64,000 bases of DNA, from positions 62,001 to 126,000 of the forward strand of contig CAKSFR010000006.1 in assembly GCA_934454635.1 (NCBI GenBank), read 5' to 3'. Shown here piece after piece: positions 16,732 through 62,046 of the stretch. Numbering within the stretch: position 1 is the first letter of the stretch; every line of letters begins with the position of its first letter. The notes under the pieces are model-generated. The model ran no database searches and had not been told where the DNA came from. It worked only from the letters and a program-made list of their open reading frames with translations. The translations under genes and the position numbers were made by a program. This DNA comes from an uncultured Ruminiclostridium sp. (GTDB lineage Bacteria > Bacillota > Clostridia > Oscillospirales > Ruminococcaceae).

Positions 16732-16755
16732 GATTTGCGGAGCAAATCGCGCGAG
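16732..16755 (+). repeat. 24-bp palindromic repeat, copy 1
   Basis: GATTTGC-gga-GCAAATC, followed by GCGCGAG. An identical 24-base copy is at 16862-16885. The hairpin has a three-base loop, as in the larger arrays at 17031 and 37184. Confidence 0.85.
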
Positions 16756-16861
16756 CCGCAGGTTTGCGGGAGCAGGGCTGCGGGAACGCGGCGTTTCGGC
16801 GGAGCGGGAGAGGGAAGCGGAGAATGAGAAAGCCGCGGCGGCAGCCGATGGGGGGCGAGCA

Positions 16862-16885
16862 GATTTGCGGAGCAAATCGCGCGAG
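16862..16885 (+). repeat. 24-bp palindromic repeat, copy 2
   Basis: Identical to 16732-16755 and in the same orientation, in the GC-rich gap (16718-16935) before the broken DUF998 gene. I see no gene in that gap. Confidence 0.85.
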
Positions 16886-17030
16886 GCCCTCAGGAGGCTG
16901 CCGCATTGATATAGAGCATGGGAAAGGACGCGAAAATGAACGATTTAATTGGCAGTCTTGTTTTTAATGTGATTTTATTAACAACTATACTTGGCGAGTT
17001 TGTACTTCCTTGGATTTTGAAGCGTTTTTA

Positions 17031-17220
17031 TACTATTTTTCAATCTTCCTATAGACAACGTCTATAGGAAGATTCGCCGCTTCTGCGAAGCGGCGTGGCG
17101 GCGTAGCCGCCGAAAAAGCCGTACAATACTAATTCCGTCAAAGCCGTCGGCTTTGACATACCGCTTTTTAAGCGGTAATCAATATATAGACATTGTCTAT
17201 ATATTGATTAGGAATTAGTA
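17031..17220 (+). mobile_element. 190-bp six-hairpin element inserted in DUF998
   Basis: Starts TACTATTTTTCAATC and ends GGAATTAGTA, flanked by direct TTA (17028-17030, 17221-17223). It holds six perfect hairpins, each with a three-base loop: 17042-17074 (15 bp), 17075-17095 (9), 17097-17111 (6), 17137-17157 (9), 17159-17177 (8) and 17176-17210 (16). The outermost two share ATAGAC/GTCTAT around the loop. TACTAATTCC at 17127 is the inverted copy of the right end, so the last three hairpins form a nested unit. Confidence 0.88.
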
Positions 17221-17466
17221 TTACAAAGGCTACAACAGCAAAACAATGGTTATGAGCGTTTTGGGGAGTCCCGAAAGCCCTGTGAGAATAATTTACAATA
17301 TTTGGCTCGTGTGGTTAGGCGCTTTTTTACTGTTTACTTCAATTTTGCTTTTTGAGGTCATTAACGCTGTTTCAAGTATACCGGCTGTACTAACTTTAAT
17401 TTCAATTTCCGCTTTTGCAATAGGCGCAGGGATACTGTCGGGATTGTTTAGTGTAAATGAGTCTAA

Positions 17467-17566
17467 TACTAATCACCAATAAAACTATAGACAAAAAATC
17501 TTCGTATAACCCCTATATGCAAGATTATACTCGATTTTTTGTATAGTTTTTAATCGGTGCTAAGTA
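17467..17566 (-). mobile_element. Miniature inverted-repeat element, copy 5 (100 bp), inside DUF998
   Basis: Begins TACTAATCACCAAT and ends ATCGGTGCTAAGTA, with TAA on both sides (17464-17466, 17567-17569). Deleting the element and one TAA joins GAG-TCT to AAA-GAA in frame. Because the host sequence is recoverable, this copy proves the target duplication. Confidence 0.95.
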
Positions 17567-17891
17567 TAAAGAAAAAGTTACTGCGGCTTCAAAAATTCAT
17601 GGCGCAGGTTCCGCGCTGGGTTTTATGGCGTTATTATTTTTCCCGTTGTTATGGGGAATTTTCTCGTTCAGGTGCGGCGACGTTATACAGGGCGCGGTTT
17701 GTACGACCGCATTCGTGTTAGCTGTTTTATTTTTTGTATTTTTCATTATGGGTGACAAAGAAAGGTTCAAAGAAACAGTTTTCTCATACGCAGGTTTATG
17801 GGAAAGACTAAGCTTATTCTTTATGTACGTTCCGTTTCTGTATATAGCAATACATAATTTGCTTATGTTCTGAATTATCAGCAAATGAAAA

Positions 17892-17923
17892 AATAACCCG
17901 AGAAAAGCCCTCGGGTTATTTTT
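17892..17923. terminator. Bidirectional terminator
   Basis: AATAACCCGAG (17892-17902) pairs with CTCGGGTTATT (17910-17920), with A tracts on the left and T on the right, between the convergent DUF998 and lipoprotein genes. Confidence 0.85.
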
Positions 17924-17938
17924 ATGACGGTTTCGCTA

Positions 17939-18484
17939 TTATATTGAAAAATCAAATTCGGTTTCTTCCGTCTGCTCCGAAACCGGCAATTCCTTGAAAT
18001 CCGACAGCGATACCGAAATATTTCGCCCGCTGAGCTTAAGTTCGGCGGGATTTCCAGCTTCGTCCAGAGTAAGCGTGTAAAGCGAATGTTCGGATTCGCC
18101 CGTTACCGTTAAAATCCCACCGCTTTCCGTGCAGTTTCCCTGAGCGGCGGAGTCCATCGCGTCGGCGATAAGGCACGCGGCGGAAACAGTGCTCTCCGAG
18201 CAGTCAGCCTCGCCCTCAAGACCGTACATAGACAGCTTTGTTTCACCGTCTTTCAGCGACACTATAAGTCCCTCAAGCGCATACGGCTCGGTAACGCATA
18301 GTTCCCAGCTGTCTGCACCGAAACGCCGAAGCTGCGCCTTACAGCTTTCTCCGTCAAAAGAAATATCCGCCTGCGCCGAGAACGATTTGTCCAGCTTCGG
18401 CGCGGGCGCTCCGGGAACTGCCGCCGAACAGCCCGCGCACGTCAGACCGAGAAATAAAAAAGAACAGATAAATATTTTTTTCAT
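17939..18484 (-). CDS. Small lipoprotein of unknown function, 181 aa
   Basis: Signal peptide MKKIFICSFLFLGLTCAGC with lipobox Cys19. The mature part is beta-rich and acidic, with alternating SFSAQADISFDG, LRRFGADSWEL and TLTLDEAGNPAEL segments, a pattern like LolA/LppX-type or outer-leaflet lipoproteins, but no family is recognised with confidence. It ends 15 bp before the bidirectional terminator. It stands alone; the 149-bp inverted-repeat element at 18524 lies upstream. Confidence 0.78.
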   Translation of the reverse strand: MKKIFICSFLFLGLTCAGCSAAVPGAPAPKLDKSFSAQADISFDGESCKAQLRRFGADSWELCVTEPYALEGLIVSLKDGETKLSMYGLEGEADCSESTVSAACLIADAMDSAAQGNCTESGGILTVTGESEHSLYTLTLDEAGNPAELKLSGRNISVSLSDFKELPVSEQTEETEFDFSI

Positions 18485-18523
18485 AGCTTTTCCCTTTCGC
18501 AGATGAAAATGTACAAAAGGTCG

Positions 18524-18672
18524 CCTCTAAAAACCTCGTTTGAGTGAAAATGTGTATAGCACACCTCCTGCTTCGTCAAACCTCCTCGTAAGGCATACAG
18601 CCTTATTTCGTCGGCTTTCCTCGCATTCGGCGCACTCTACCCATTTTCCCTTTTCAAACCGGTTTTTAGAGG
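18524..18672. repeat. 149-bp inverted-repeat element
   Basis: The ends CCTCTAAAAACC (18524-18535) and GGTTTTTAGAGG (18661-18672) are perfect complements, and the complementarity continues imperfectly for about 30 bases (GTTTGA, GAAAATG). The middle contains small hairpins such as AAGGC-ATACA-GCCTT. A 35-bp relic with similar ends is at 55388-55422. It fills the gap between the lipoprotein and nnr; no gene is seen. Confidence 0.7.
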
Positions 18673-18699
18673 TTCCCAAAAGCAAAAAGGGAATACGCT

Positions 18700-20223
18700 T
18701 TACATATTCTCTGCAAGCTGTGCGATAAGATCTCGCGGCAGAATACCGTAAAGCGGCTTGCTTTTTCCGAGCTTATCCGCGGCAAGTCCGTGCAGGTAAA
18801 CGCCCAGAACCGCACCGTAGAACAGATCGACGCCCTGCGCAATAAGCGACGCGATGATTCCTGTGAGAACATCGCCGCTTCCGCCTTTGGCAAGTCCTGC
18901 GTTTCCGGTCGTGTTGACAAACGCCTCGCCCGTAGGAGCTGCAATCACCGTGTTTACGCCTTTAAGCACAGTAACAGCGCCGAACTCTGCGGCGAAAGCT
19001 TTTGCTGCGGAAATTCGGTCGGACTGTATCTGTGCAACCGTTTTTCCCGTCATTCTTGCAAATTCCGCCGGGTGCGGCGTTACGATAACGCCCTTTTTGC
19101 TTTCTTTCAATACATTTATATTCGGCGAGATCGCATTTAGTCCATCTGCGTCCACAATTACGGGACAATCTGCGTTTTTTATGACAAATTCTGTCGCGTC
19201 GGCGGTTTCTACGCTGTTTCCAAGTCCGCAGCCTATCGAAATCGCCGAAAATTTTCCGTCTGTAAGAAAACGCTTCAGTTCGGCGGTTCCGTTTGAATTG
19301 AGAAAGCCGTCGTCGCCGCAGTCGAGTGGAAGATACGTCGTTTCGGGTACAGCCGAAGCGATAGCGTTCACCACGCGCGCGGGCGTGGCGAGCGTGCAAA
19401 GCCCCACTCCCATATGGAGCGCCGCGTCGGTCGAGAGCAGAGCCGCTCCCGTGTACCGCGCGCTCCCCGCAATGTTCAGCAGGCTTCCGTAGCTGCCCTT
19501 ATGTGAAACCGTTTTTCGCTCGGGGATAAATTCGCGTATCATTTCGTCGGTCAATACCGCTTCGCAGCCGTCGTAGCAGCTTTGCGGTATGCCGATGTCG
19601 GCAAGGAGAAGCACGCCGCAGTGTTCAAAGCACGGGTGAGAATAAAGCCCCTTTTTTACAGCGCCGAGGGTTATCGTAAAATCGGGACGGAATGCGTTTT
19701 CGGCGATTTCGCCCGTGTCGCTGTTGCAGCCGCTCGGAACGTCAATGGAAATTTTCATCGCGCCGCATTCTTCGTTTATAAAGCGGAACAGGTCGGAAAG
19801 GCTCTCGTCAAGCTGACCGTGGAAGCCCGTGCCGAAAACGCAGTCGATTACCATTTCACTGTTTTCAAGAACGCGCTTTACGTTCTCCTTCTGATGTGTG
19901 TAAAGGCTCACGTTAAGCCCCGTTTCGTATATTGAATAGCAGAGCCTTGCGCACTCGGACTTCGGCAGGTCGGAAACGAATATAAGCACGGCGTTTGCGC
20001 CCGCTTCAAGCAGCAGGTCGGTTATAACAATGCCGTCGCCGCCGTTATTTCCGCGTCCCGAAAGTACGACGACGTTTTTGTCCTTAACGCCGTCGGTAAG
20101 CTGGGTTATGCGGTTAAAGCACGCCTGCCCCGCGTTTTTCATAAGCTGAAGATACGGGATACCGCTTTCGTCTGCGTTCTTTTCCGCCCGCTTCATCTGT
20201 TCATTTGTTACGGCAAGCCGCAT
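18700..20223 (-). CDS. nnr: Bifunctional NAD(P)H-hydrate epimerase / ADP-dependent dehydratase, 507 aa
   Basis: This enzyme repairs hydrated NADH and NADPH. The N-terminal epimerase domain (YjeF_N, 1-210) has VVVLSGRGNNGGDGIV and SIDVPSGCNSDTGE. The C-terminal dehydratase domain (carbohydrate-kinase fold, ~220-507) has KGSYGSLLNIAGS, VIVTPHPAEFARMTG and the catalytic/anion-hole segment NAGLAKGGSGDVLTGIIA. Length and domain order are as in the fused bacterial form. It follows the ADP-ribosylglycohydrolase gene by 16 bp, so both are probably in one transcript concerned with nucleotide housekeeping. Confidence 0.96.
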   Translation of the reverse strand: MRLAVTNEQMKRAEKNADESGIPYLQLMKNAGQACFNRITQLTDGVKDKNVVVLSGRGNNGGDGIVITDLLLEAGANAVLIFVSDLPKSECARLCYSIYETGLNVSLYTHQKENVKRVLENSEMVIDCVFGTGFHGQLDESLSDLFRFINEECGAMKISIDVPSGCNSDTGEIAENAFRPDFTITLGAVKKGLYSHPCFEHCGVLLLADIGIPQSCYDGCEAVLTDEMIREFIPERKTVSHKGSYGSLLNIAGSARYTGAALLSTDAALHMGVGLCTLATPARVVNAIASAVPETTYLPLDCGDDGFLNSNGTAELKRFLTDGKFSAISIGCGLGNSVETADATEFVIKNADCPVIVDADGLNAISPNINVLKESKKGVIVTPHPAEFARMTGKTVAQIQSDRISAAKAFAAEFGAVTVLKGVNTVIAAPTGEAFVNTTGNAGLAKGGSGDVLTGIIASLIAQGVDLFYGAVLGVYLHGLAADKLGKSKPLYGILPRDLIAQLAENM

Positions 20224-20239
20224 TGCGCCACCTCCTTGC

Positions 20240-21334
20240 TTAATCTTTATATGCTTTTATTTCTGCGCATTTCACATACTTGTTAGCTCTGTCCGGACAC
20301 ATACGACCGTCTTGGTACAAGTCATCGGCAATTTCGAGGATAACATCGGCGATTTCAAGTTTTTCCTTGAATTTTGCGGGGATTTTTTCATAGCCCAGAT
20401 ATGTTCCGACAATATTTCCCGCGACTGCGCCCGTCGAATCGCTGTCGCCCTCGTGGTTCACTGCCGCAGTAATGCATTTTTCAAAATCCCCGCTGTATTT
20501 TACGGCGCAGTAGACCGCTATTGCAAGCATTTCCTCCGCGACCCAGCCCTCGCCGAGCGAATGAATTGCGGCAATATCATCGGTTTCGCTTTCCGCAAGC
20601 TTCAGCGCGCGCGTCATAATTTCGGTAAATTCCCCGATATGCTCAGAATCTGCAAACATTTTTTTCATTGCGGCAATCGAGTCGGCGGCGGCTTCCTTTA
20701 TGCTCATTCTCTCATTTTTCGTGAGCAGAGAAATGATATGCACCAGCGCGGCGGCGGGGATATATCCAAGCTCATGCCCGTGCGTAAGAGCAGCGGACTG
20801 CGCGCCGATAAGGTCGATTTCATCCTGCGGCAGTCCTTGCTTTGCAAGGTACAGTCCAATAGGCGCAGCGCGCATTACTCCTCCGCAGCCCTTACTGTGA
20901 TTTATCGGCTTTTCAAGGCTTCCGTTGCAGCCCTTTTTAATGGAGGTAATGCAGGTGTTGCCCGGAGCGCGTCTGCTGTGCAGCTCCGGAATACACATAA
21001 GCCATGTTACGCATTCGTGTTTTTTCGCGGAAGGTTCCTGCGTTTCAAGCCACTCTTCATAGCATTTTGCTATATAAACGGAATAGCCGCCGAAAATTCC
21101 GCGCTCTCTTGCGCGGGTCGAGCCGAGCAGCAGTCCCGCAGCGGTGAAAAGCGACATCTGCGTATCGTCAGAAATCAGAGCCTTGTCATTTACGAAGCTA
21201 TACGAGGTTATCCCATTTTCACCATGCTTTGAGAAAATCTGCTGTTCGGGCATAAATTCAACCGCATAGCCCAGTGCGTCTCCTGCCGCACCGCCTATCA
21301 TACAGCCGCGGAATTTATCGTTCAGCTTATCCAT
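20240..21334 (-). CDS. ADP-ribosylglycohydrolase (DraG) family protein, 364 aa
   Basis: The family removes ADP-ribose from proteins, nucleic acids or small molecules with two Mg ions. Metal-binding motifs are present at both ends: GGAAGDALGYAVEF, SDDTQMSLFTA (residue ~60) and NHEGDSDSTGAVAGNI (~residue 310). The target is unknown. I chose ATG at 21334, which overlaps galE by eight bases; an ATG four codons upstream (21346) is equally possible. The gene sits between galE and nnr on the same strand. Confidence 0.9.
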   Translation of the reverse strand: MDKLNDKFRGCMIGGAAGDALGYAVEFMPEQQIFSKHGENGITSYSFVNDKALISDDTQMSLFTAAGLLLGSTRARERGIFGGYSVYIAKCYEEWLETQEPSAKKHECVTWLMCIPELHSRRAPGNTCITSIKKGCNGSLEKPINHSKGCGGVMRAAPIGLYLAKQGLPQDEIDLIGAQSAALTHGHELGYIPAAALVHIISLLTKNERMSIKEAAADSIAAMKKMFADSEHIGEFTEIMTRALKLAESETDDIAAIHSLGEGWVAEEMLAIAVYCAVKYSGDFEKCITAAVNHEGDSDSTGAVAGNIVGTYLGYEKIPAKFKEKLEIADVILEIADDLYQDGRMCPDRANKYVKCAEIKAYKD

Positions 21335-22325
21335 TGTTTTTCGCATAATTCCATGCGTCGCGGCACATCTGCTCAAGTCCGCGCTCAGCCTTCCAGCCAA
21401 GCTCTTTTTCAGCCTTTTCGGGAACGCAGTAGCACTCCGCCGCGTCGCCCGCTCTGCGCTCCGCAATGTCGAACGGGATCGTCAGACCGTTTACGCGCTC
21501 GAAAGTGCGGATGATTTCAAGGACGGAATAGCCGTTGCCCGTGCCGAGGTTATAAGGGATAGCGCCTTTCTTTTCGCGCACGCTCTTGACTGCCGCGAGG
21601 TGTCCTTTCGCGAGGTCTACGACGTGGATATAGTCGCGCACGCAGGTTCCGTCGGGCGTGGGATAGTCGTTTCCGAACACTTTCAGGCGTTCCTGCTTGC
21701 CGCGCGCAACGTTAAGTATTATCGGCATGAGATTGTTCGGGATACCGTTCGGGTCCTCGCCTATCTTACCGCTTTCATGCGCACCGATAGGGTTGAAATA
21801 TCGCAGCAGGGCAATGCTCCACTCGTCGTCCGCAGCGCATATGTCGCGGCTCATGTCCTCGATCATCAGCTTCGTTCTGCCGTAGGGATTGATAGCGGAG
21901 AGGGGGAAGTCCTCGCGAACGGGAACCGTTTCGGGGATTCCGTAAACTGTCGCCGACGAACTGAAAATAAGCTTCTTGCAGCCGTGCTTTTTCATAGTAT
22001 TGAGCAGGACGAATGTTCCGCCGAGGTTGTTCGTGAAGTACATCAGCGGTTTTTTTACGCTCTCGCCGACCGCCTTATAGCCCGCGAAGTGAATGACCGC
22101 TTCAATGTTGTTTTCAGAGAAAATGCGCTCCATGTCTGCTTCGCTGCACATATCCGCTTCATAGAACGGGAAATCGCGCCCGCTTATCTCTTTTATAAGC
22201 TCCACGGCGTGCGGTTTCGAGTTGTAAAAGTTGTCCATTACCACAATGTCCTCGCCCGCGCCGAGCAGCTCAATGCAGGTATGCGAGCCGATATAGCCCG
22301 CTCCTCCGGTTACTAAAATTGCCAT
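21327..22325 (-). CDS. galE: UDP-glucose 4-epimerase GalE, 332 aa
   Basis: GalE interconverts UDP-glucose and UDP-galactose. It has the Rossmann motif VTGGAGYIGSH at the N-terminus, the catalytic SSSATVYG and YGRTK (Ser and Tyr-x3-Lys) around residues 122-150, and the sugar-nucleotide-binding RYFNPIGAH. The length is typical. AAAGGCGG precedes the ATG. It overlaps the ADP-ribosylglycohydrolase gene and could supply UDP-galactose for surface glycans or glycolipids. Confidence 0.97.
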   Translation of the reverse strand: MAILVTGGAGYIGSHTCIELLGAGEDIVVMDNFYNSKPHAVELIKEISGRDFPFYEADMCSEADMERIFSENNIEAVIHFAGYKAVGESVKKPLMYFTNNLGGTFVLLNTMKKHGCKKLIFSSSATVYGIPETVPVREDFPLSAINPYGRTKLMIEDMSRDICAADDEWSIALLRYFNPIGAHESGKIGEDPNGIPNNLMPIILNVARGKQERLKVFGNDYPTPDGTCVRDYIHVVDLAKGHLAAVKSVREKKGAIPYNLGTGNGYSVLEIIRTFERVNGLTIPFDIAERRAGDAAECYCVPEKAEKELGWKAERGLEQMCRDAWNYAKNNG

Positions 22326-22394
22326 AATTATTCCGCCTTTCTTACACTTATATGTTGTTTTTTACACTTTTTTGTTTTTAAACGCTGTACAAAA

Positions 22395-22727
22395 TTATTC
22401 CCAGTCCTTCCAGACCTCGGGGCAATACCCGACGGTCGCCTTTGCGCCGTTTCTGACGATAGGCGTTCTGAACAAAGCGGGGCATTCCGCGAGTTTTTCG
22501 CGTTTCCCGGCGTCGAGCAGGTATTTGTACTCAAAATATTCCTTGCTTTTTTCGTCAACCAGCGCGTCAAGCCCGCCGACCGCCTTTTCAACGCTTTCAA
22601 GCTCGCGGCGGCTCAGCCCTTTTTCGAGAATGTCAACGCGCTGAACGGGAATGCGGCGCTCCTTGAAATAGCGCTCCGCTTTTTTAGTGTCGAAGCACTT
22701 GCCTTTGCCGAAGATCTGTATGTTCAC
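22395..22727 (-). CDS. ArsC/Spx family thioredoxin-fold protein, 110 aa
   Basis: A small thioredoxin-like protein with FGKGKCFDTKKAERYF at the N-terminus (one redox Cys followed by x3-Lys), FRTPIVRNG late in the chain and the family's usual length. True arsenate reductases have C-x5-R; that Arg is absent here, so it is more likely an uncharacterised YffB/ArsC-like reductase than an arsenic resistance enzyme. It overlaps the preceding gene by four bases and ends the leftward fabD-aroE-aroK run. Confidence 0.8.
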   Translation of the reverse strand: MNIQIFGKGKCFDTKKAERYFKERRIPVQRVDILEKGLSRRELESVEKAVGGLDALVDEKSKEYFEYKYLLDAGKREKLAECPALFRTPIVRNGAKATVGYCPEVWKDWE

Positions 22728-33161: not shown

Positions 33162-33211
33162 AAAGGGTTCAGCGCGGCTAAGCCGCATTTCCCGTACATA
33201 TCGGAGGTAAA

Positions 33212-37153: not shown

Positions 37154-37183
37154 GATGTTCCTTTCTTTTGTGTGGTGGGAGTG

Positions 37184-37280
37184 GGCGCGCCGTGTTTTGC
37201 GCGGGCTTTGCCCGCGCGAAAGCCTGCGGCGAAGCCGCAGGGCGCAAGCTTGCGCTAAGCGCAAGTTTGCGCGGCGCGCC
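37184..37280 (+). repeat. 97-bp GC-rich multi-hairpin repeat, copy A
   Basis: Bounded by GGCGCGCC at both ends. Inside are GCGCGGGC-ttt-GCCCGCGC, CCTGCGGC-gaa-GCCGCAGG and CTTGCGC-taa-GCGCAAG, all with three-base loops. Copy B at 37463 is identical except for one base. Confidence 0.92.
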
Positions 37281-37462
37281 CGTTTGAATGTAGCAGAAAG
37301 TGTGCGGGTTTAAGGTTTCATATAGGGTAAGCGGTGCGTCGAATCAAGCAGCGCAAGAGAAGCTTCAGGCGCAATGGGAAAAGGTTCATGATTCGGGGCA
37401 AACCCTCGCCCGCTCCGCTCGCCGCTTCTCCGAAGCGCCTCGGGAGAGCGCTCGGGTTTGCC

Positions 37463-37559
37463 GGCGCGCCGTGTTTTGCGCGGGCTTTGCCCGCGCAAAA
37501 GCCTGCGGCGAAGCCGCAGGGCGCAAGCTTGCGCTAAGCGCAAGTTTGCGCGGCGCGCC
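37463..37559 (+). repeat. 97-bp GC-rich multi-hairpin repeat, copy B
   Basis: Same orientation as copy A, one difference (A for G after the first hairpin). The 557-base gap 37154-37711 holds only these two copies, a 182-base unique stretch between them and the miniature element at 37611; I see no gene in it. Confidence 0.92.
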
Positions 37560-37610
37560 GCTCCCACTCCGCAAATATCGCCGAAGCCCGCAAGCCTCGG
37601 CGCCGCCTTA

Positions 37611-37711
37611 TACTAAGCACCAATAAAACCATAGATAAAAAATTCTGGTATAACCTATACATTCAAAGATCACACTCGATTTTTTGTATAGTTTTTAATT
37701 GGTGCTGAGTA
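37611..37711 (-). mobile_element. Miniature inverted-repeat element, copy 6 (101 bp)
   Basis: Begins TACTAAGCACCAAT and ends ATTGGTGCTGAGTA; TTA flanks at 37608-37610 and 37712-37714. The right TTA, read on the minus strand, is the TAA stop of the DUF4956 gene. It is nearly identical to copy 2. Confidence 0.93.
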
Positions 37712-38389
37712 TTAGTTCATATACTCGCCGCTGTATTCAAGCAGCGTTACGGAGGACACGCCGTCAATTTCCTGAAATCTGGAAATGTGCGAGGTGTCGT
37801 TATTTTTCACCTTTACTTCAATGGTGAGCTCGTTTGAGCCGCCTGTTTTGGTCTTGTTCTTTAAGCGGTATTTCATCGCGCCGAGAACTGCATTAACGTT
37901 GGATTCGGCGTTATCGGTGTAGTGAACTATGAGCAGGTAGTTGCGCTTCTGGGTCTTTATCGCGCTGAACACTATGTATATCGCGGCGATAAGAATCGTT
38001 CCGAAAACCGCTGCGAAATAAAGTCCCGCACCTGCGGTTATGCCCGCTGCGATAGACCAGAAAAGGAATCCGATGTCGAGCGGATCCTTTATCGCCGCAC
38101 GGAAGCGCACGATAGAGAGCGCGCCGACCATACCGAGTGAGAGAACAACGTTTGAACTGATAGTCATGATGATGAAGCCTGTGATTGAGGTTATCATTAC
38201 GAGAAGAATGTTGAAATTGTCGCTGTAAACGACTCCGCGGTAGCAGAAGCGGTATACCAGATAGATGATTATTCCGCAGACGAGCGCGGAGAGCATTGCG
38301 GCAATCATTCCCGCAGGAGTAAGCGCGGTGAAATTCAGTGCGTCCTTGAAAAGCTGTAAAGTGTCGTCGATTATGCTTAATATTTTCAT
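37712..38389 (-). CDS. DUF4956 family membrane protein, 225 aa
   Basis: Four membrane spans in the first ~145 residues, with the family motif LGMVGALSIVRFRAAIKDPLD between spans, followed by a ~80-residue cytoplasmic ferredoxin-like domain ending in DGVSSVTLLEYSGE. DUF4956 proteins are regularly encoded next to VTC-domain proteins, as here (24 bp), and the pair is thought to act in polyphosphate or phosphate-related membrane processes; the role is unproven. The stop codon coincides with the element's target duplication. Confidence 0.88.
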   Translation of the reverse strand: MKILSIIDDTLQLFKDALNFTALTPAGMIAAMLSALVCGIIIYLVYRFCYRGVVYSDNFNILLVMITSITGFIIMTISSNVVLSLGMVGALSIVRFRAAIKDPLDIGFLFWSIAAGITAGAGLYFAAVFGTILIAAIYIVFSAIKTQKRNYLLIVHYTDNAESNVNAVLGAMKYRLKNKTKTGGSNELTIEVKVKNNDTSHISRFQEIDGVSSVTLLEYSGEYMN

Positions 38390-53819: not shown

Positions 53820-53849
53820 CCCCCGCAGGGCGCGGGGGTCGGCTTTTTG
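53820..53849 (+). terminator. Terminator after the small membrane protein
   Basis: CCCCCGC (53820-53826) pairs with GCGGGGG (53832-53838), followed by TCGGCTTTTT. Confidence 0.65.
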
Positions 53850-53930
53850 CCGAAAATTGACGGATTATGGCGAATTTCGGAGAATTTTCCGCGCCGTGAC
53901 CGATAACCCGAAAAAGAAAGGGTCAGATCA

Positions 53931-54617: not shown

Positions 54618-54629
54618 GGGGGAAGCGGA

Positions 54630-55355: not shown

Positions 55356-55357
55356 AC

Positions 55358-55372
55358 GCAGACAAAGTCTGC
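55358..55372 (+). repeat. Small three-base-loop hairpin between transporter genes
   Basis: GCAGAC-aaa-GTCTGC, two bases after the ATPase stop. It may stabilise or end part of the transcript so that the binding protein is made in excess. It also fits the triloop hairpin class seen elsewhere. Confidence 0.6.
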
Positions 55373-55387
55373 ATTTATAAATACGGA

Positions 55388-55422
55388 ACTCCAAAAACCT
55401 CCTTTACGGCAGTTTTTAGAGT
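55388..55422. repeat. Relic of the 149-bp inverted-repeat element
   Basis: ACTCCAAAAACC and AGTTTTTAGAGT pair imperfectly, with the ends resembling those of 18524-18672 and TCCAAAA following as there. The middle is deleted. Confidence 0.5.
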
Positions 55423-55453
55423 ATCCAAAATAAAAATTAAGGAGAAAACTAAA

Positions 55454-56260
55454 ATGAAACTCAGAAAAATTCTCGCATTGGCAGCAGCAGCTCTCATGGC
55501 TGTATCAGTTGCAGGCTGTTCCGAAAAGAAGTCGGACGACGCAGCTTCAACAACCTCCGGCGCGGCTCAGGAAAACACCGCTTCCGCAGGAACTATCAAG
55601 TTCGGTACGAACGCGGAATTTCCGCCCTTTGAATTTGTTGCCGCAAACGGTGTTATCGACCAGTACGACGGTATCGACATGGCTATCGCTAAGCAGATCG
55701 CTGACGACAACAACATGACTCCCGTAATTGAAAATATGGAGTTCGATTCACTGCTCATCGCTCTTCAGAACGGTCAGATAGACGCAGTTATCTCGGGTAT
55801 GACAGCTACCGATGAGAGAAGAGAATCCGTTGATTTCTCGACAACATATTACACCGCAAAGCAGGTCATGATAGTTAAGGAAGATTCCACTATCGAAAAG
55901 GCTTCCGATATGGCTGACAAGAAGATCGTTGTAATTCAGGGCTATACGGGCGAAACCTGCGTTAAGGATTTCGGCTATCCTTATGAAGCGTTCAAGAAGG
56001 GTACAGAAGCTATCCTTGAGCTTATCAACGGCAAGTGCGACGTTGTTGTTATCGACTCCGCAACGGCTCTCAAGTACGTTGGCGACAACGAGGGTCTGAA
56101 GATCGTTGAAGATAACGACGCTTTCGAGTCCGAGGAATACGGAATTGCAGTTGCAAAGGGCAACACAGAAATGCTCGACAAAATCAACGCTACCGTTGAG
56201 AAAATGCTTGCTGACGGCACTATCAACGAGCTTTCCGCAAAGTATGCAGAGGCTGAATAA
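55454..56260 (+). CDS. Polar amino acid ABC transporter substrate-binding lipoprotein, 268 aa
   Basis: Lipoprotein signal with SVAGC (Cys22). The mature protein is a two-lobed type II binding protein: IKFGTNAEFPPFEF at the start, GIDMAIAKQIAD, DAVISGMTATDERRESVDFS, and the late YGIAVAKGNTEM. The motif set is that of glutamine/polar amino acid binders; exact specificity is open. AAGGAG precedes the ATG. Codon use is more biased than in the permease, fitting higher expression. Confidence 0.95.
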   Translation: MKLRKILALAAAALMAVSVAGCSEKKSDDAASTTSGAAQENTASAGTIKFGTNAEFPPFEFVAANGVIDQYDGIDMAIAKQIADDNNMTPVIENMEFDSLLIALQNGQIDAVISGMTATDERRESVDFSTTYYTAKQVMIVKEDSTIEKASDMADKKIVVIQGYTGETCVKDFGYPYEAFKKGTEAILELINGKCDVVVIDSATALKYVGDNEGLKIVEDNDAFESEEYGIAVAKGNTEMLDKINATVEKMLADGTINELSAKYAEAE

Positions 56261-56274
56261 TAATTAAAGCGATA

Positions 56275-56313
56275 AAAAACTCGGGACGGCGAAAAACCGT
56301 TCCGAGTTTTTGT
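56275..56313. terminator. Bidirectional terminator
   Basis: AAAAACTCGGGACGG (56275-56289) pairs with CCGTTCCGAGTTTTT (56297-56311) with one mismatched step, between convergent genes. Confidence 0.9.
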
Positions 56314-56323
56314 TTTTGCTGGA

Positions 56324-56827
56324 TTATTCCCAGTGAAATTTCGTGAGCGAGCCTTTGTTTTTCAGCTCGGGGAAGCCCCACTGCCGCAGCACCTCATATA
56401 CGCCTATTGCAACGCTGTTCGAGAGGTTAAGGCTGCGCGCCGCTTCGTTGTCGATCATCGGGATACGCACGCAGCGCTCCTTATTTTCGTAGAGAAGCTG
56501 TTCGGGCAGCCCTTGATCCTCACGTCCGAAAACGATATACACGCGGTCGCGGTACTGCACGTCGCAGTAGTTGTTCAGCGCCTTTGTGCTGAAATATCGG
56601 AAGTCGCCGTTCGGATTTTTCGAGAAAAAGTCACCCAGATTTTCGTAATAGGTTATGTCGAGCAGGTGCCAGTAGTCAAGTCCGGCACGTTTTAGCTGCC
56701 TGTCGTCAATTTCAAAGCCCATGGGCTTTACGATATGAAGCCTTGCGCCCGTGAGCGCGCAGGTGCGCGCGATGTTGCCCGTGTTTTGCGGTATGCGCGG
56801 TTCAACAAGAACGATATTGAGTTCCAT
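56324..56827 (-). CDS. trmL: tRNA (cytidine(34)-2'-O)-methyltransferase TrmL, 167 aa
   Basis: SPOUT-fold enzyme that methylates the wobble base of tRNA-Leu. LVEPRIPQNTGNIARTCALTG at the start, LKRAGLDYW and the knot region with FGREDQGLP, RIPM and SLNLSNSVAI are diagnostic. Length is typical. Confidence 0.96.
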   Translation of the reverse strand: MELNIVLVEPRIPQNTGNIARTCALTGARLHIVKPMGFEIDDRQLKRAGLDYWHLLDITYYENLGDFFSKNPNGDFRYFSTKALNNYCDVQYRDRVYIVFGREDQGLPEQLLYENKERCVRIPMIDNEAARSLNLSNSVAIGVYEVLRQWGFPELKNKGSLTKFHWE

Positions 56828-56844
56828 AATCTGCCTTTCGATAA

Positions 56845-56874
56845 TAAACCCGCTGAACGTTTAAGAACAGCGGG
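56845..56874 (-). terminator. Terminator of the collagen-like operon
   Basis: On the minus strand CCCGCTG (56874-56868) pairs with CAGCGGG (56855-56849), followed by TTTATT. Confidence 0.7.
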
Positions 56875-56884
56875 TAAGCTTATT

Positions 56885-58657
56885 TTATTTTCTTCTGCCT
56901 CTTTTGCGGCCGGATTTCTTAACGAGAAGAACCGAACCTGCTGCGGCTGCCGGAATAATAAGACCTATTGCAATACCCGTGTTCGGGTTTACAACGCCGC
57001 CCTTTCCGTAGGTCGTATTTGATGGGTCAAGCGTAACATCTCCCGCAGTCGGAGTGTTATTATCTGTGTTGGAGGGAACCTGTCCGTATGTGCCGTTTAC
57101 ATATACGACCTGTCCGTCCTTTCCGTCGCGTCCGTCTGCGCCGTCTTTACCGTCCTTGCCGTCTGCGCCGTCCTGACCGTCTTCGCCGGGTTCGCCGTCC
57201 TCGCCCTTGAGCGATTCGAGCCACTGAGCGAGAGTGCCTTTATAGCCCTGTTCCTGAGCAAGTTCATAGGCGGACTTTCCGTTTGCGCCTTCCTTGCCGG
57301 TAATATTCTTGATGAAATTATCTACGCTTCCGTAGTTTCTCTTTGCCCAGCCCTCAAAGCTTACGGAGCTGATAAAATTATCCATGCTGCCATAGTTGCG
57401 CTTTGCCCATTCTTCAAAGGATTCGCCGTCTGCGCCGTCCTTGCCGTTAGTACCGTTTACGCCGTCTTTACCGTTAGTACCGTTTATACCGTCCTTGCCG
57501 TCTGCGCCGTCCTTACCGTCTGCGCCGTCCTGACCCTTGAGCATATCGCGAATCGAACTGTCGTTTTCAATAAGATTTTTTACGACCTCGACAATCTGGC
57601 TGTTGGGAACCTGATATGCTGCAAGCTTGTCGTTGATTACCGCGATTGCGTTTTCGAGGTTATCAATCTGACCCGTGTAGCGGCTGTCGCTGAGAACGGC
57701 TGCCACTAACTCTCCGCGGTGGTTTGTGAAATAGCTTTCAATCAGTTTGTTCACGTCGTCCTCGGTAAGCAGCTTGTCCGGAATGCTGCTCTCCATATCA
57801 TTTTTTACCTGATTGACATAATCAACGAGCGTGCCCGTATCGCTGTCCGAAAGCCCTATATATTCCTTTATAAGGCGTTCAAGAATATTCATTACCTGCT
57901 TTTTCGAGTAGTATGCGTCGTCCTTGGCTTCATACTTTATTCTGATACCGTGCTGAGATGTGCTGTCAAGAGTGAAGCTTAGGTCGTGACCGGAGTTAAG
58001 GGTCGTAGTCGGAGAAGAATCGACCCTGTCGCTGAGATTGATTTTGTACATATAATATTTAAGCGAATCTGCAAAAATCGAATCGTTGACCAGCTTGTTC
58101 CAACCGAGAAGCGTGCGGAAATCAGCAGCATAGAGCTTATAGTCGAAGCTTCCGATGTTCGGGTTTGCGGAGGAACGCTTTATATCAATATAAGAATTTC
58201 CGTCGGAGTCTGTTCCCTTTGAGAAAGAAAGAGTAAGAAAGAAATAATCGTTTGAAGCCATTGCATTGCTGATATTACTTGCCTGACTGCCAGAAAGGGA
58301 GGTGTTATATGCAAATCCGATAGAGTTGTTTGAAATTTTAAAGTTGAGAGTCAGACTGCGGTATTTCGCGAGCTCGCGAAGCTCGTCCTTTGTCATTACC
58401 ACAAAATTACCCGCCGCAGGAGAAAGCTCGATAGTGCGGTTCACTATAACTCCGTTGTCAATAAGCGCAAGGTACTGTACAAGCGTATAGCCGGTAGCAC
58501 TGCGAATATAGCTGTCAAGGGTGATGAAGTCGCCGATCGGCTGATCGTCGGAAGTGCCGACAGACGGCTGCGCCCCCGCTGTAAATCCGAACGCGGGCAC
58601 CGTTCCGAACACGATGATTGCCGCTAGCGCCGAGCAGAGTGTTTTTCTGAGTTTCAT
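56885..58657 (-). CDS. Collagen-like surface protein, 590 aa
   Basis: Signal peptide ending near AGA (residue ~29), a ~340-residue N-terminal region rich in Ser/Asn, then Gly-x-y triplets of the type GADGKDGADGKDG in two blocks (about 375-410 and 490-525). Between the blocks are two copies of a WAKRNYGS-DNFI unit and the motif KSAYELAQEQGYKGTLAQWL common in bacterial collagen-like proteins. The C-terminus has NPNTG, a membrane span and RKRGRRK, like a sortase substrate with a variant motif. It is the last gene of the operon headed by the BY-kinase, 18 bp after its neighbour. Confidence 0.9.
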   Translation of the reverse strand: MKLRKTLCSALAAIIVFGTVPAFGFTAGAQPSVGTSDDQPIGDFITLDSYIRSATGYTLVQYLALIDNGVIVNRTIELSPAAGNFVVMTKDELRELAKYRSLTLNFKISNNSIGFAYNTSLSGSQASNISNAMASNDYFFLTLSFSKGTDSDGNSYIDIKRSSANPNIGSFDYKLYAADFRTLLGWNKLVNDSIFADSLKYYMYKINLSDRVDSSPTTTLNSGHDLSFTLDSTSQHGIRIKYEAKDDAYYSKKQVMNILERLIKEYIGLSDSDTGTLVDYVNQVKNDMESSIPDKLLTEDDVNKLIESYFTNHRGELVAAVLSDSRYTGQIDNLENAIAVINDKLAAYQVPNSQIVEVVKNLIENDSSIRDMLKGQDGADGKDGADGKDGINGTNGKDGVNGTNGKDGADGESFEEWAKRNYGSMDNFISSVSFEGWAKRNYGSVDNFIKNITGKEGANGKSAYELAQEQGYKGTLAQWLESLKGEDGEPGEDGQDGADGKDGKDGADGRDGKDGQVVYVNGTYGQVPSNTDNNTPTAGDVTLDPSNTTYGKGGVVNPNTGIAIGLIIPAAAAGSVLLVKKSGRKRGRRK

Positions 58658-58675
58658 ATTTTTTACCAGCCTTTC

Positions 58676-59215
58676 TTACTTTGAAGGATGTTGGAGCATC
58701 TGTATTCTTATTTTGCAGTAAAAACGTGATTGTTTTGCGCTTTTTCGCAGGAATATCCCCGCGAGAAACAGCGCGGCTTCCGCACCGAAGAAAAATGTGC
58801 ATAAAACAATCCTGTCCGGTTCAAGCGCGTACAGCGGAACGAAAACGCAGTCGGTCACGAGCGAGCATAGCTGTGTGAGCAGCTCGTCAAGCGCGCCTGT
58901 ACGCGTATCGCGTGCGCCGAGAAGCAGCAGCGGCAGGAACCGCAGAACTGCGGAATATACGGGAAAAAGCCATTGCCGCATGAAGCCCGCAAGCAGTGCG
59001 GCGCTGAGCCATACCGCAAGCATTACCCAAAATCCGAGGTAATAGACCCATTCAAACGGCGCGCCGAACAGGAGAAATGCACAGGCGAACGTCGCGGCGG
59101 CATGAACGGCGATATTTTCACCGGTACCTGTCGCAAAAGCGGCGCGTATCCTTTTTTCGGCAAAACGTGCGGCGAGCGGGTGAGCAGCGATAAAGGAATC
59201 GGTTTTTAAGCCCAT
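58676..59215 (-). CDS. Multi-span membrane protein, 179 aa
   Basis: About four membrane spans between residues 38 and 155, with a basic N-terminus and a C-terminal KQSRFYCKIRIQ tail. No family is recognised. It overlaps the upstream membrane protein by ten bases and precedes the collagen-like gene by 18 bp, so it is part of that export or surface unit. Confidence 0.72.
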   Translation of the reverse strand: MGLKTDSFIAAHPLAARFAEKRIRAAFATGTGENIAVHAAATFACAFLLFGAPFEWVYYLGFWVMLAVWLSAALLAGFMRQWLFPVYSAVLRFLPLLLLGARDTRTGALDELLTQLCSLVTDCVFVPLYALEPDRIVLCTFFFGAEAALFLAGIFLRKSAKQSRFYCKIRIQMLQHPSK

Positions 59216-60219
59216 TCAAACACCCCCGTCTGCACCAGTATGAAGCCGTACCAAGCTGCGATGATGAGCGCGGCGGCAGCCGTGTACACAATTTTCGCGC
59301 TTTTTTCATTTTCGCGGAAAGTCATGACGGCAAGCCTTTTTCCTATCGGGAAAAGCTCTCCGCATACGGAGAGAACCGAGGGAAGCCCGAGCATTGCGGC
59401 AAGCGGCATAAAGCGAATATCGGAAACGCTCGGCAGCGACACAACAGCCGCCGCAAAAAGCGTAATTATCATAGTTTCGGAATAATCCCTGTCTGAGTGC
59501 ATCTTGCGCGTGAGCGCCGCGAAAATGAACAGCAGGAAAAAAGCTGCGGGGACAAGCGGAGATATTCCGTTTTGAGGGAATGACTGCGCTGAAGCGGACA
59601 TATACTGGAAAAGGACGTCCCCGGGATTTATAAACAAAAGTGCGGCGCCCGCAAACAGACCTGCGATAAGCAGGGGAATCCCGACGGGGAAAAGCAGCAC
59701 CGGATAAAAAGCGAGAAGAAGCAGCGCTTCGGGGCAGAAGCACACGGCAAGCAGCAAAAGAGCGGCGTATCGCGAAAATCGCCTTTGCGAAGCGTATTTA
59801 AAAGCGTACATACAAAGCGCCGCAGCGCAGAATATCACGGGTTCATGTACAAAATAAAGCCAAAATCCGCTTGCTGCGAATATCGCTGCCGAAAAAGACG
59901 GGCAAGATGAACGGTAGGCATAGCGTGAAACTGAAACCGCGAAAACTGCGGACAGAACGGCGTATATTGCTGTACTGTCGGGGAAAATCAGCGCCAGCAG
60001 ACGCGCGGGATAGGAAAATCCGATCGGCAGAGCGCTTGCGCTTCCCTCTAAAATAAGCTCGTACTGCGCCGCGATATCGGGCGATACAGAGCCGAGGCAA
60101 ACAAAAGTGCAGAAAAAGATTACAGCGCCCGCAGCGGAGCATATAAGAGCTTTTTTCTTCAGCGCCGAGCACGCTGCGAGCAGCAGCGGCAGCGCAATAC
60201 ACGTCGCGGCAGCAATCAT
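59206..60219 (-). CDS. Polytopic membrane protein, EpsG/O-antigen-polymerase-like topology, 337 aa
   Basis: About ten spans, with aromatic-rich loops such as ASGFWLYFVHEPVIFC and a late DIRFMPLAAMLG. The topology and its position next to a BY-kinase resemble EpsG-type polysaccharide polymerases, but I see no motif that proves it. It overlaps the kinase by four bases. Confidence 0.68.
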   Translation of the reverse strand: MIAAATCIALPLLLAACSALKKKALICSAAGAVIFFCTFVCLGSVSPDIAAQYELILEGSASALPIGFSYPARLLALIFPDSTAIYAVLSAVFAVSVSRYAYRSSCPSFSAAIFAASGFWLYFVHEPVIFCAAALCMYAFKYASQRRFSRYAALLLLAVCFCPEALLLLAFYPVLLFPVGIPLLIAGLFAGAALLFINPGDVLFQYMSASAQSFPQNGISPLVPAAFFLLFIFAALTRKMHSDRDYSETMIITLFAAAVVSLPSVSDIRFMPLAAMLGLPSVLSVCGELFPIGKRLAVMTFRENEKSAKIVYTAAAALIIAAWYGFILVQTGVFEWA

Positions 60220-60959
60220 TCGTCTTCTTCCTCATCAGGGTCGGCTTCCTCCGCCGCAAGAGCGTTGCGGTAATCGGAAACCTCGTCGCGCAGGTCGGAG
60301 CAGTGCGTTTTTACCGCGCCGATAAGATTGGCTTTCGCGAGAGAAAGCGTGAGAAGCGCTTTTTTCAGATCGGCGTGAGTCGTCTTATTCTCGCGTATAA
60401 CGAGGACAACGCCTGCGGTATATCCCCCGAACAGCAGCGCGTCGTTTGCAACGCACAGCGGCGGGGTATCGATCACAATATAGTGGTAATAGCTGTAAAG
60501 CATTCGTATCAGCCGTTCCATTTTTTGTCCTCCGAGCAGGTCGGCAGGATTTTCGGGAACAGCGCCCGACGGCATAACATGGAAATTTCGGAGAACCTCC
60601 CGGCAGATAGCGCTGTACACGTCGCTTTCACCGCTTAAAGCAGTGCTTAAACCGAAGCGGTTTTTAAGGCGGAACAGCTCATGCAGGCTCGGTCGGCGCA
60701 AATCCGCATCAATAAGCAGGACGCGCTTATCAAGCTGACTGAACGCTATTGCGAGATTGGCTGCCGTGGTTGTCTTTCCCTCGCTTTTGCACTGGCTTGT
60801 GACAACTACGGAGCAAAGAGAACGCGAGGACATTGCCGAAAGCAGGTTCGCACGGATATTCTTGTAGACCTCGGAAATAACGGGCGGAGTATTTTCGTTA
60901 AGGATAAACTGCCTCGTGATTATATCTTCGCCGAAGCTTTCATATAAAGGCAATTTCAT
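60216..60959 (-). CDS. CpsD/CapB-type bacterial tyrosine kinase, 247 aa
   Basis: BY-kinases control polysaccharide chain length and surface processes. Walker A is QCKSEGKTTTAANLA, A' VLLIDADLRRPSLHELF and B YIVIDTPPL. The C-terminus is acidic (EEADPDEEEDE), with only one nearby Tyr rather than the usual Tyr cluster, and no CpsC-like membrane partner is next to it. I chose ATG 60959, close to AAAGGGG; a TTG nine codons upstream is an alternative. Confidence 0.88.
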   Translation of the reverse strand: MKLPLYESFGEDIITRQFILNENTPPVISEVYKNIRANLLSAMSSRSLCSVVVTSQCKSEGKTTTAANLAIAFSQLDKRVLLIDADLRRPSLHELFRLKNRFGLSTALSGESDVYSAICREVLRNFHVMPSGAVPENPADLLGGQKMERLIRMLYSYYHYIVIDTPPLCVANDALLFGGYTAGVVLVIRENKTTHADLKKALLTLSLAKANLIGAVKTHCSDLRDEVSDYRNALAAEEADPDEEEDE

Positions 60960-61002
60960 ACCCCTTTCCCGCACATGGCTGTGCAATCATATACACTATA
61001 TT

Positions 61003-61031
61003 ATTATACATATTTTTGTTGTTTTTGTCAA
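61003..61031 (-). promoter_or_regulatory. Promoter of the BY-kinase/collagen-like operon
   Basis: On the minus strand TTGACA (61031-61026), 17-base spacer, TATAAT (61008-61003), about 45 bases before the kinase. Confidence 0.88.
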
Positions 61032-61150
61032 TATTTAAGAGCCGATTTTTCAAAATAATTCCGCAAAAAGCGTCGGATATAACGGCGGCAGCCTGTTCAA
61101 AATAAAGAAAAGCACATTTGCGCTAAACTATTGAAACGGGAGGCACTGCC

Positions 61151-61516
61151 GTGAATGAGAAAAAATCCAAAAGACTGAGTTCTGCGCTTGCGGGCGCGGT
61201 AAGCGGGGTCATGAACGGGCTTTTCGGCTCGGGCGGAGGCGCGGTCGCGGTACCGCTTTTGGAACGGACGGGACTTGAACCGCGAAAAAGCCACGCAACA
61301 TCCGTCGCGCTGATATTTTTTCTGAGCATTTCCGCCACAATCGGCTATTTTCTGGGTGGAAACCTGAACGCGGGGCTTGTTCTTCCGCTTCTTCCGGGAG
61401 GATTTTTCGGTGCTGTCCTCGGTTCGATCCTGCTCAAAAAAATAGACAACGGACTGCTTAGGCGGATATTCGGCGGGCTGCTAATAATCGCGGCGGGGAG
61501 AATGCTGCTGAAATGA
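61151..61516 (+). CDS. Half-size TauE/SafE family membrane protein, N-terminal half type, 121 aa
   Basis: The TauE/SafE family exports sulfite or other organic anions and normally has two repeats of four spans in one ~250-residue chain. This protein is one repeat: NGLFGSGGGAVAVPLLE motif, RKSHATSVALIF and about four spans. It starts with GTG after GGGAGG and overlaps the next gene by four bases, so the two halves should be made together as a heterodimer. Confidence 0.85.
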   Translation: MNEKKSKRLSSALAGAVSGVMNGLFGSGGGAVAVPLLERTGLEPRKSHATSVALIFFLSISATIGYFLGGNLNAGLVLPLLPGGFFGAVLGSILLKKIDNGLLRRIFGGLLIIAAGRMLLK

Positions 61517-61878
61517 ACCTGCTTATCGGATTTCTTGCGGGACTTATCGCTTCAATGGGGCTTGGCGGCGGCTTTGTCATGATAATTTACCTGACCGTTT
61601 TCAGACAGTGCCCGCAGCTTGAGGCTCAGGGCGCAAATCTGCTGTTTTTTCTGCCGATAGCGCTGCTCTCGATGTTTCTTCACACTCGCAGCGGGCTTAT
61701 CGACTGGCGCAGAATACCGCTCGCGGCGGCAGCGGGCATAGTCGGCGCGCTTATAGGCACGTTTCTGGGCGCGGCGCTTGATGAAAACCTGCTTCGAAAG
61801 CTGTTCGCCGTGCTTCTGCTCGTCACGGGGCTGCGTGAGCTTTTTCACGCCCGAAAAGTGAAAAGCACGGCGCAGTAG
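61513..61878 (+). CDS. Half-size TauE/SafE family membrane protein, C-terminal half type, 121 aa
   Basis: The second half of the same transporter: FLAGLIASMGLGGGFVMIIYL repeats the glycine motif, then QGANLLFFLPIALLSM. It is the same length as its partner and coupled by ATGA. Each half has the full repeat unit, so this is a natural split rather than a frameshift: the frames differ, but both have proper starts. Confidence 0.85.
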   Translation: MNLLIGFLAGLIASMGLGGGFVMIIYLTVFRQCPQLEAQGANLLFFLPIALLSMFLHTRSGLIDWRRIPLAAAAGIVGALIGTFLGAALDENLLRKLFAVLLLVTGLRELFHARKVKSTAQ

Positions 61879-61964
61879 CGCGGCGCCCCGCCTTTTGAAA
61901 GCTTTCTGCTATACCGCACGCCGGAAACGGCGGCTCGTTATGCTCGGCGAAGCCCCTGCGGCGC

Positions 61965-62046
61965 CTGCGCGCACGCCGAAGGCGTGCGCGCAGAGCTGCG
62001 GCGCGAAGCGCCGCAGCAGCCTGCGGGCGGCTTTGCCGCCCGCAGG
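61965..62046 (+). repeat. Tandem array of three perfect three-base-loop hairpins
   Basis: 61965-61993 is a 13-bp stem with loop gaa; 61996-62016 a 9-bp stem with loop gaa; 62020-62046 a 12-bp stem with loop ttt. All stems are perfect and spaced by two or three bases. It lies in the 255-base gap between the TauE pair and the AGCS gene; no gene is seen there. Confidence 0.9.

Follow-up and report, generated by a model that had tools for sequence, protein, structure and literature searches.

Why do hairpins with loops of exactly three bases recur in the gaps of a single stretch of bacterial DNA? The stretch in question, referred to here as "the window", is 64 kb (50% GC) of contig CAKSFR010000006.1 from an uncultured Ruminiclostridium sp. 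An earlier note on it had listed such triloop hairpins and proposed that some mechanism acting on structure rather than sequence generates or processes them. Here, we describe a computational follow-up in the window and in genomes of its relatives. The peak at three-base loops is real and beyond chance, yet its source is a set of elements, dispersed between genes in some gut Clostridia, with three back-to-back triloop hairpins in a closing inverted repeat.

We give slightly better than even odds (a probability of roughly 0.53) to the explanation that these are transposon-derived intergenic elements selected for DNA structure. In this reading, the hairpins would be the functional core of small non-coding elements dispersed between genes. 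Each element consists of three abutting hairpins, with loops mostly of 3 nt, inside a closing inverted repeat. Either DNA strand could fold into a closing stem with three arms, i.e., a cloverleaf, or a cruciform in duplex DNA. The element at 17031–17220 comprises two triplets and would have come by transposition with a 3-bp TNA duplication, as a non-autonomous transposon or miniature inverted-repeat transposable element (MITE). GC-rich arrays would form a second family of the same design, inherited vertically at several loci. Strong selection would act on pairing, most likely in the DNA itself, with tips kept small and capped by C-NNN-G (GNA or TNC in most cases) and otherwise free to change fast.

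Triloop hairpins in the window

Loops of 3 nt account for 9 of the 19 perfect inverted repeats in the window that have arms of 9 bp or more and loops of 3–15 nt, against an average of 0.6 in five dinucleotide shuffles. The remaining 10 have loops of 4, 6, 7, 9, 10, 14 or 15 nt. Loop-3 hairpins also outnumber those in shuffles at arms of 7 bp (11 versus 3.0) and 8 bp (6 versus 1.6). These hairpins are not independent of one another, being grouped in threes within outer inverted repeats (Table 1). By a simple rule (a hairpin followed by a T run), none of the nine with arms of at least 9 bp resembles an intrinsic terminator.

The hairpins originally listed at 17042–17210 (six), in both 97-bp repeats (three each), at 61965–62046, at 16730 and at 16862 are all present. 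Two others, at 33174 and 55358, drop out of the class: their arms are 5 and 6 bp, which is chance level, because arithmetic predicts ~62 triloop hairpins with 5-bp arms and ~16 with 6-bp arms in 64 kb. Some stems fall short of the perfection described: the TAA hairpin of the 97-bp repeat (7 bp perfect, then one G.T) and the first hairpin of the copy at 37184, with 8 perfect bp versus 12 in its twin.

Table 1. Positions of hairpin arrays and associated repeats in the window
Position	Strand	Feature	Basis or remark
~9567–9667, 11431–11532, 12727–12815, 12878–12953, 17466–17567, 37610–37712, 63880–63972		Copies of second MITE-like family	
16730..16750	+	Single hairpin, 9-bp arms, core GATTTGC-GGA-GCAAATC	Core also in relatives' arrays
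16862..16878	+	Second GATTTGC-GGA-GCAAATC hairpin, 7-bp arms	
17028..17030	.	Target-site duplication TTA (+ strand), left copy	Read from sequence
17031..17220	-	Six-hairpin transposon-like element, 190 bp	Ends, 3-bp duplication, related copies, covariation
17042..17074	-	HP6, 15-bp arms, loop AAC, core TATAGAC-NNN-GTCTATA	
17075..17095	-	HP5, 9-bp arms, loop TGC	
17097..17111	-	HP4, 6-bp arms, loop GTA	
17137..17157	-	HP3, 9-bp arms, loop GTC	
17159..17177	-	HP2, 8-bp arms, loop TTT	
17176..17210	-	HP1, 16-bp arms, loop ATT on +, core TATAGAC-NNN-GTCTATA	
17221..17223	.	Target-site duplication TTA (+ strand), right copy	Read from sequence
37175..37191	.	Left outer inverted repeat GTGGGAGTGGGCGCGCC around paired 97-bp arrays	Read from sequence
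37184..37280	-	97-bp three-hairpin array, copy 1; ends GGCGCGCC; loops TTT, GAA, TAA on +	
37397..37462	.	Inverted repeat GGCAAACCC..GGGTTTGCC between arrays, one inner TCC triloop hairpin with 6-bp arms	
37463..37559	-	97-bp three-hairpin array, copy 2	99% identical to copy 1
37552..37567	.	Right outer inverted repeat GGCGCGCCGCTCCCAC	Read from sequence
61914..61932	+	Left closing stem of GC-rich array, 19 nt	95% complementary to 62070–62088
61965..62046	+	Three near-abutting triloop hairpins	
62070..62088	-	Right closing stem of GC-rich array	

A six-hairpin, transposon-like element

Read along the minus strand, the element at 17031–17220 begins with the 5' end TACTAATTCC, continues through HP1-HP2-HP3, an internal GGAATTAGTATT and HP4-HP5-HP6, and finishes with the 3' end AATAGTA. 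Its terminal inverted repeats, TACTAATTCC and, reversed, TACTATTTTTC, are imperfect, yet common to several genomes, and its ends (TACT..AGTA) are bordered by TTA/TTA. HP2 closes with a T-A pair; the other window array hairpins close with C-G.

The closest relatives found are two Ruminiclostridium sp. metagenome-assembled genomes, with 76% protein identity over one gene. Relatives are draft genome assemblies, labelled G002, G021, G039 and so on, and stretches fetched from them are labelled L035, L087 and so on. Of 71 genomes from the relatives' genus, 25 contain the pattern AATACTAATTCC, with 31 matches in G039 and 14 in G052. Since the flanks of 14 G039 loci differ from each other, the copies lie at unrelated sites. 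Long copies with different stems occur in G021, G052, G062 and G039 with the duplication TAA, several hairpins being imperfect in G021 and G062. Shorter forms also exist, with HP1 alone or HP1-3, and a one-hairpin copy in G039 is bordered by CAA. We took 20 loci from G039, G052 and G062 at matches to the end pattern; an exact rule finds matching 3-bp duplications at 13 of them, TAA at 12 and CAA at one, in counts biased to TAA.

Stems of these elements change in pairs. Eight elements, drawn from five genomes, were aligned (A2) and scored over the closing repeat, HP1, HP2, HP3 and HP6 (HP4 and HP5 align too poorly for scoring); 96.3% of cells are paired, versus 82.8% in shuffles and 35–39% in slid controls. 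Two-sided changes affect 24 of 55 pairs (12.7 pairs in shuffles), with 58 two-sided cells versus 7 one-sided.

Some of the one-hairpin derivatives in G039 (L035–L038, L041 and L042) have an HP1-like 5' arm and an HP6-like 3' arm (L037 and L042 among them). Judged by their arms, such derivatives look as if they were deletion products between the similar hairpins HP1 and HP6.

A GC-rich family of three-hairpin arrays

The word GATTTGC-GGA-GCAAATC occurs at six places in 4 of the 71 genus genomes, and five of the six sit within three abutting triloop hairpins. In G002 (L055), two triloop hairpins of this type adjoin a third hairpin with a 4-nt loop. Triplets in G067, G068, G069 and G035 are flanked by inverted copies of GGCGGCGAAGCCGC, some of them altered, and their order is A-B-C or its reverse complement. 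Matches to a BLAST query, with partial and overlapping ones counted, number 16 in G067, 18 in G069, 4 in G068 and 1 in G035. An alignment of 17 GC-rich arrays (A1) has 91.1% of cells paired and two-sided changes in 23 of 44 pairs, with 73 two-sided cells versus 5 one-sided.

We partitioned 40 arrays into hairpins by a procedure that did not demand perfect stems but did demand the terminal CGGC-NNN-GCCG motif; arrays without that motif, or with more than 3–4 mismatches per hairpin, did not enter the set. Five of 45 partitions were spurious (begun at an inner hairpin) and fell to a score cut, and the poorly partitioned L183 and L184 were kept. The loop is 3 nt in 118 of the 120 hairpins, the two exceptions having 4 nt (L158:1593 and L182, i.e., G068:C8:44655). 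There are 55 distinct stems; of their 1,282 pairs, 2 are G.T and 10 are mismatches of other kinds. Constant loop size, as claimed for all these hairpins, therefore holds strictly in the GC-rich family alone, because only 33 of 48 loops are 3 nt in the window's transposon-like element and its relatives (strict perfect-arm rule; the window's six all belong to the 33). Exceptions among those copies include HP4, with 4 nt in three, and HP2, with 4 or 5 nt in two.

The caps are distinctive. In a set of 145 array hairpins, which includes orthologues and some terminal hairpins, loops are GNA or TNC in 114 and AAA or TTT in 22, the closing pair is C-G in 142, and GC stands beside the loop on the 5' arm in 107. 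Solitary triloop hairpins of the same genomes have GNA or TNC in 54 of 215 and C-G closing in 91 of 215. Orthologues were counted separately in the cap, gene-context and 40-array counts. A thermodynamic basis for the loop bias was sought with ViennaRNA; the energies are identical across the 32 strand-symmetric triloop classes under both RNA and DNA parameters, and hence uninformative.

Within the window, the array at 61965–62046 consists of hairpins at 61965–61993 (13 bp, GAA), 61995–62017 (10 bp, GAA) and 62020–62046 (12 bp, TTT). The relatives' covariance model R1 matches the 97-bp repeats on the minus strand at E = 0.0055 for copy 1, and at E = 0.00098 for copy 2; the array at 61940–62043 gives E = 0.32, which is not significant. 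These weak matches suggest that the window's GC-rich arrays may be members of the relatives' family. At L087:13286-15736, arrays stand in pairs at intervals of ~265 bp and share part of the spacer, a distance close to the 279-bp spacing of the window's 97-bp repeats.

Farther afield, R1 matched 3 of 247 genomes drawn from the taxonomic family, with G067 and G069 absent among the matches listed. One two-hairpin array was found in G225, which was picked for its R1 match, whereas stretches from 19 further family genomes, of which three were very short or could not be read, yielded no array. A plasmid collection queried with one array gave no match. Four fetched stretches (L167, L168, L187 and L191) have no readable bases.

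Stems, loops and flanks change at different rates

Twelve orthologous arrays allow a direct comparison of G067 with G069. Loop sites differ at 40 of 105 positions and stem sites at 2 of 721, where "stem" denotes perfect-arm hairpins alone and one imperfect hairpin is counted as other (2 differences of 26). Terminal hairpins differ at 9 of 383 positions and flanks at 772 of 6408. Flank differences are 4.1–7.7% at seven loci and 15–32% at five, the higher values probably stemming from indels. The number of changed loops, 18 of 35, has P ~1e-5 against 6.6% per site and 0.013 against the pooled flank value of 12%. For the stems, P is ~6e-19 against 6.6%, and the deficit holds at 12% as well.

No two-sided stem change was seen between the G067 and G069 orthologues. 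At one locus, G068 has a stem changed on both sides (CATTTGAC..GTCAAATG to CGTTTGAC..GTCAAACG). From the frozen orthologous stems and this paired change, we infer that pairing is guarded in the short term, while stems drift by paired changes in the longer term. As far as conservation goes, the earlier emphasis on structure over sequence is borne out: two-sided stem changes are common and G.T pairs nearly absent.

Assembly or library errors at palindromes could conceivably create loop differences of this kind, given that the relatives are draft assemblies and that some arrays end contigs (L056 and L059). We consider such an artefact very unlikely. Seventeen of the 18 changed loops remain GNA, TNC, AAA or TTT, which random error would not achieve, and those hairpins have stems almost free of errors. 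Exact reverse-complement loops make up 5 of the 18 changes; loop flips occur, but without a demonstrated excess, as this fraction (0.28) compares with a mean of 0.21 on re-pairing the same loops (P = 0.13).

Loop size inside and outside arrays

In ~1.23 Mb comprising the window, its relatives and other genus genomes (part of it fetched for pattern hits), hairpins whose arms measure 7 bp or more form 23 abutting arrays at loop 3 and 0 at each of loops 4–7. Hairpins of that arm length with loops of 4, 5, 6 and 7 nt number 211, 132, 129 and 111 in the same sequence. Eighteen of the 23 arrays are triplets, and one (L094) looks accidental.

Solitary hairpins present a different picture. With the same arm length, loop-3 versus loop-4 rates per 100 kb are 15.9 versus 18.0 in genus genomes without GC-rich arrays (440 kb), or 17.3 versus 18.9 when five stretches earlier omitted are added (525 kb). 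They are 13.6 versus 17.4 in other family genomes (287 kb), 10.0 versus 22.0 in E. coli K-12 (50 kb) and 19.8 versus 18.7 in array-bearing genomes (566 kb). With no clear loop-3 peak outside arrays and no clear excess over loop 4, a general, genome-wide process generating triloop hairpins, as first proposed, is not supported, and we rejected it. In one 20-kb stretch among the five added, L117 (G059:C1:1-20000), there are 12 solitary loop-3 and 4 loop-4 hairpins with arms of 7 bp or more and no abutting array; some hairpins recur there, with tgtggggagcAGA and ccccctccc each present twice.

These counts bear on fold-back (snap-back) synthesis, in which a 3' end in GC-NNN-GC would pair with itself by two bases over a loop of 3 nt and be extended, creating hairpins and restoring their perfection, so that arrays would be mutational products and not selected structures. 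The GC beside the loop and the almost universal C-G cap fit this idea, as do the scarcity of one-sided intermediates and the preference of solitary triloop hairpins in array-bearing genomes for C-G over G-C closing (41 to 7). There are also precedents in the literature: an extraordinarily stable hairpin of 2 bp has a Tm of 76.5 °C (PMC10527192), and for stem-loop synthesis human Pol theta needs just two base pairs at the 3' terminus (PMC11292364). As a full account, fold-back synthesis nevertheless seems unlikely to us. Drift plus arm-to-arm copying should alter stems at about the flank rate, which the orthologous stems contradict; they also have no two-sided change. Moreover, triplet number and A-B-C order are fixed, and solitary triloop hairpins are not in excess. 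Fold-back synthesis primed at GC-NNN-GC could still create and repair stems, but the frozen orthologous stems mean that selection on pairing would be needed besides.

Selection on DNA or on RNA

If pairing is selected, which nucleic acid folds? The triplets might be transcribed and fold as RNA, as has been proposed for BOX and Correia elements, and might serve as an mRNA stabiliser, an RNase III site or a regulator. The two-sided changes in A1 and A2 would be expected of such an element, some arrays lie ~50–150 nt from a predicted stop codon, and one study predicts RNA folding for pneumococcal repeats (PMC3049150). We regard an RNA-level element as a serious alternative that is nonetheless improbable. 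A survey of repetitive extragenic palindromic (REP) sequences reports that GT pairing is often observed and reads it as a sign of transcription (PMC3733652); here, G.T makes up 2 of 1,282 pairs. The caps are present both as GNA and in the complementary form. An Rfam scan of the window matched two tRNAs and nothing else.

Gene context points the same way. Thirty arrays lie between convergent (12), divergent (6) or tandem (12) predicted genes, where all gaps >60 bp divide into 47, 45 and 109, respectively; the six arrays between divergent genes represent four distinct loci. Selection at the DNA level is suggested by the nearly exclusive Watson-Crick pairs, the two-sided stem changes and the lack of a fixed gene orientation. 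DNA is favoured over RNA because G.T is almost absent, the caps are of GNA type, and the arrays lie between divergent, convergent and tandem genes alike. We infer that the arrays would fold as DNA in vivo.

Known repeats and a mobilising enzyme

The extraordinary stability of the d(GCGAAGC) mini-hairpin typically extends to GNA loops. Array caps resemble it, being mostly GC-GNA-GC or the complement; in contrast to the arrays, the mini-hairpin is a physical motif and not a repeat family. A reference listed in PMC11292364 has a title that describes it as an extraordinarily stable DNA structure.

In the way they work, the three-hairpin elements resemble MITEs and REP-type repeats. Bacterial MITEs (Correia/NEMIS, RUP, ERIC, RPE and CIR), as described in PMC2229807, are short, non-coding and foldable, with terminal inverted repeats and a target duplication. 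The element at 17031–17220 likewise has terminal inverted repeats, a target duplication and dispersed copies in relatives. Unlike MITEs, the elements described here have three abutting triloop hairpins per closing repeat, a TNA duplication and stems that differ among species by two-sided changes. Streptococcal BOX elements share a modular three-part design (PMC3049150); BOX varies in boxB copy number, whereas here three different hairpins stand in fixed order. Mitochondrial double-hairpin elements and sponge RHE have conserved stems with loop-only substitutions, and triple-hairpin regions occur in Igernella; they differ in being organellar with a stated loop size of 7 bp (PMC2800124). No triplet-triloop family was found in a literature search limited to open-licence papers.

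REP sequences and bacterial interspersed mosaic elements (BIMEs) are intergenic palindromic modules with short loops, joined into larger structures, and the survey gives loops of 2–3 nt for many GTAG REP families (PMC3733652). The arrays could therefore be palindromes of this type, spread by a REP-associated tyrosine transposase (RAYT, a Y1 HUH enzyme), and their short intergenic palindromes in mosaic combinations would suit that origin. We consider it highly improbable. The hairpins of the 17 GC-rich arrays abut, leaving no space for a GTAG or CGTC tag; their G.T pairs are almost absent, and the number of hairpins is fixed at three. RAYT (PF01797) is absent from five of six relatives' genomes and present in the sixth as one copy with an internal stop. 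On tag and RAYT, the arrays are not REPs.

The transposase search covered two DDE families (PF01609 and PF13586) and RAYT (PF01797), and linked none of them to the elements, so the hairpin-recognising enzyme imagined at the outset finds no counterpart among these families. A transposase would be a postulate of the transposon-derived explanation.

Points against a transposon-derived origin

Several results weigh against the explanation that we prefer. Four PF01609 matches lie in three of four genomes, none with element ends inside the fetched loci, and PF13586 has no match in the four. No empty site was found from the one flank tried, the relatives being too distant, and the sole presence/absence case is a deletion: compared with G069 (L157:5226), G067 (L160, ~11890) lacks a whole triplet, and we rejected it as an empty site because one terminal hairpin remains and 86 bp are deleted between CCCGC repeats. 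For the transposon-like element, 7 of the 20 loci have no matching duplication (most are truncated at contig ends), the search pattern fixes two of the three TAA bases, hence the bias in the duplication counts, and some hairpins of the copies in G039, G062 and G021 are broken or have loops of 4 or 5 nt. Any ends and target duplication of the GC-rich family would be putative, and the window arrays match R1 weakly. Finally, further pair types are matched in number by 29 of 500 shuffles in A2 and 7 of 500 in A1.

A broader proposal, which we hold only tentatively and think doubtful as a whole, is that the elements represent a shape-defined class of DNA element: a closing stem and exactly three ultra-stable triloop arms, with perfect Watson-Crick stems and hypervariable tips, recognised by a putative host or mobile-element factor. 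Stems would be kept by selection, fold-back copying or both, and the class would comprise at least two sequence families, one strict and one loose. Few natural DNA elements allow selection on DNA shape to be separated from selection on sequence or RNA. Here, dozens of arrays are available from the same genomes, with clearly distinct rates of difference for stems, loops and flanks and with G.T intermediates nearly absent. The arrays make it possible to test the use of extruded DNA hairpins in vivo, and hairpin tips as mutational hot spots.

Other features of the window

A second MITE-like family, ~75–105 bp long with ends like TACTNAGCACC, is distinct from the three-hairpin elements. On visual inspection, every copy is bordered by a matching TNA duplication of 3 bp (TTA, TGA or TAA). 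There are 12 end matches versus 0.84 expected, the copy at 12727 being too degenerate for a match; a longer end pattern, TACTNAGCACCAAT, occurs in 1 of the 71 genus genomes. The open reading frame at 56885–58657 (minus strand) contains repeats spaced by 9 bp and matches a collagen-like adhesin well under the curated cut-off.

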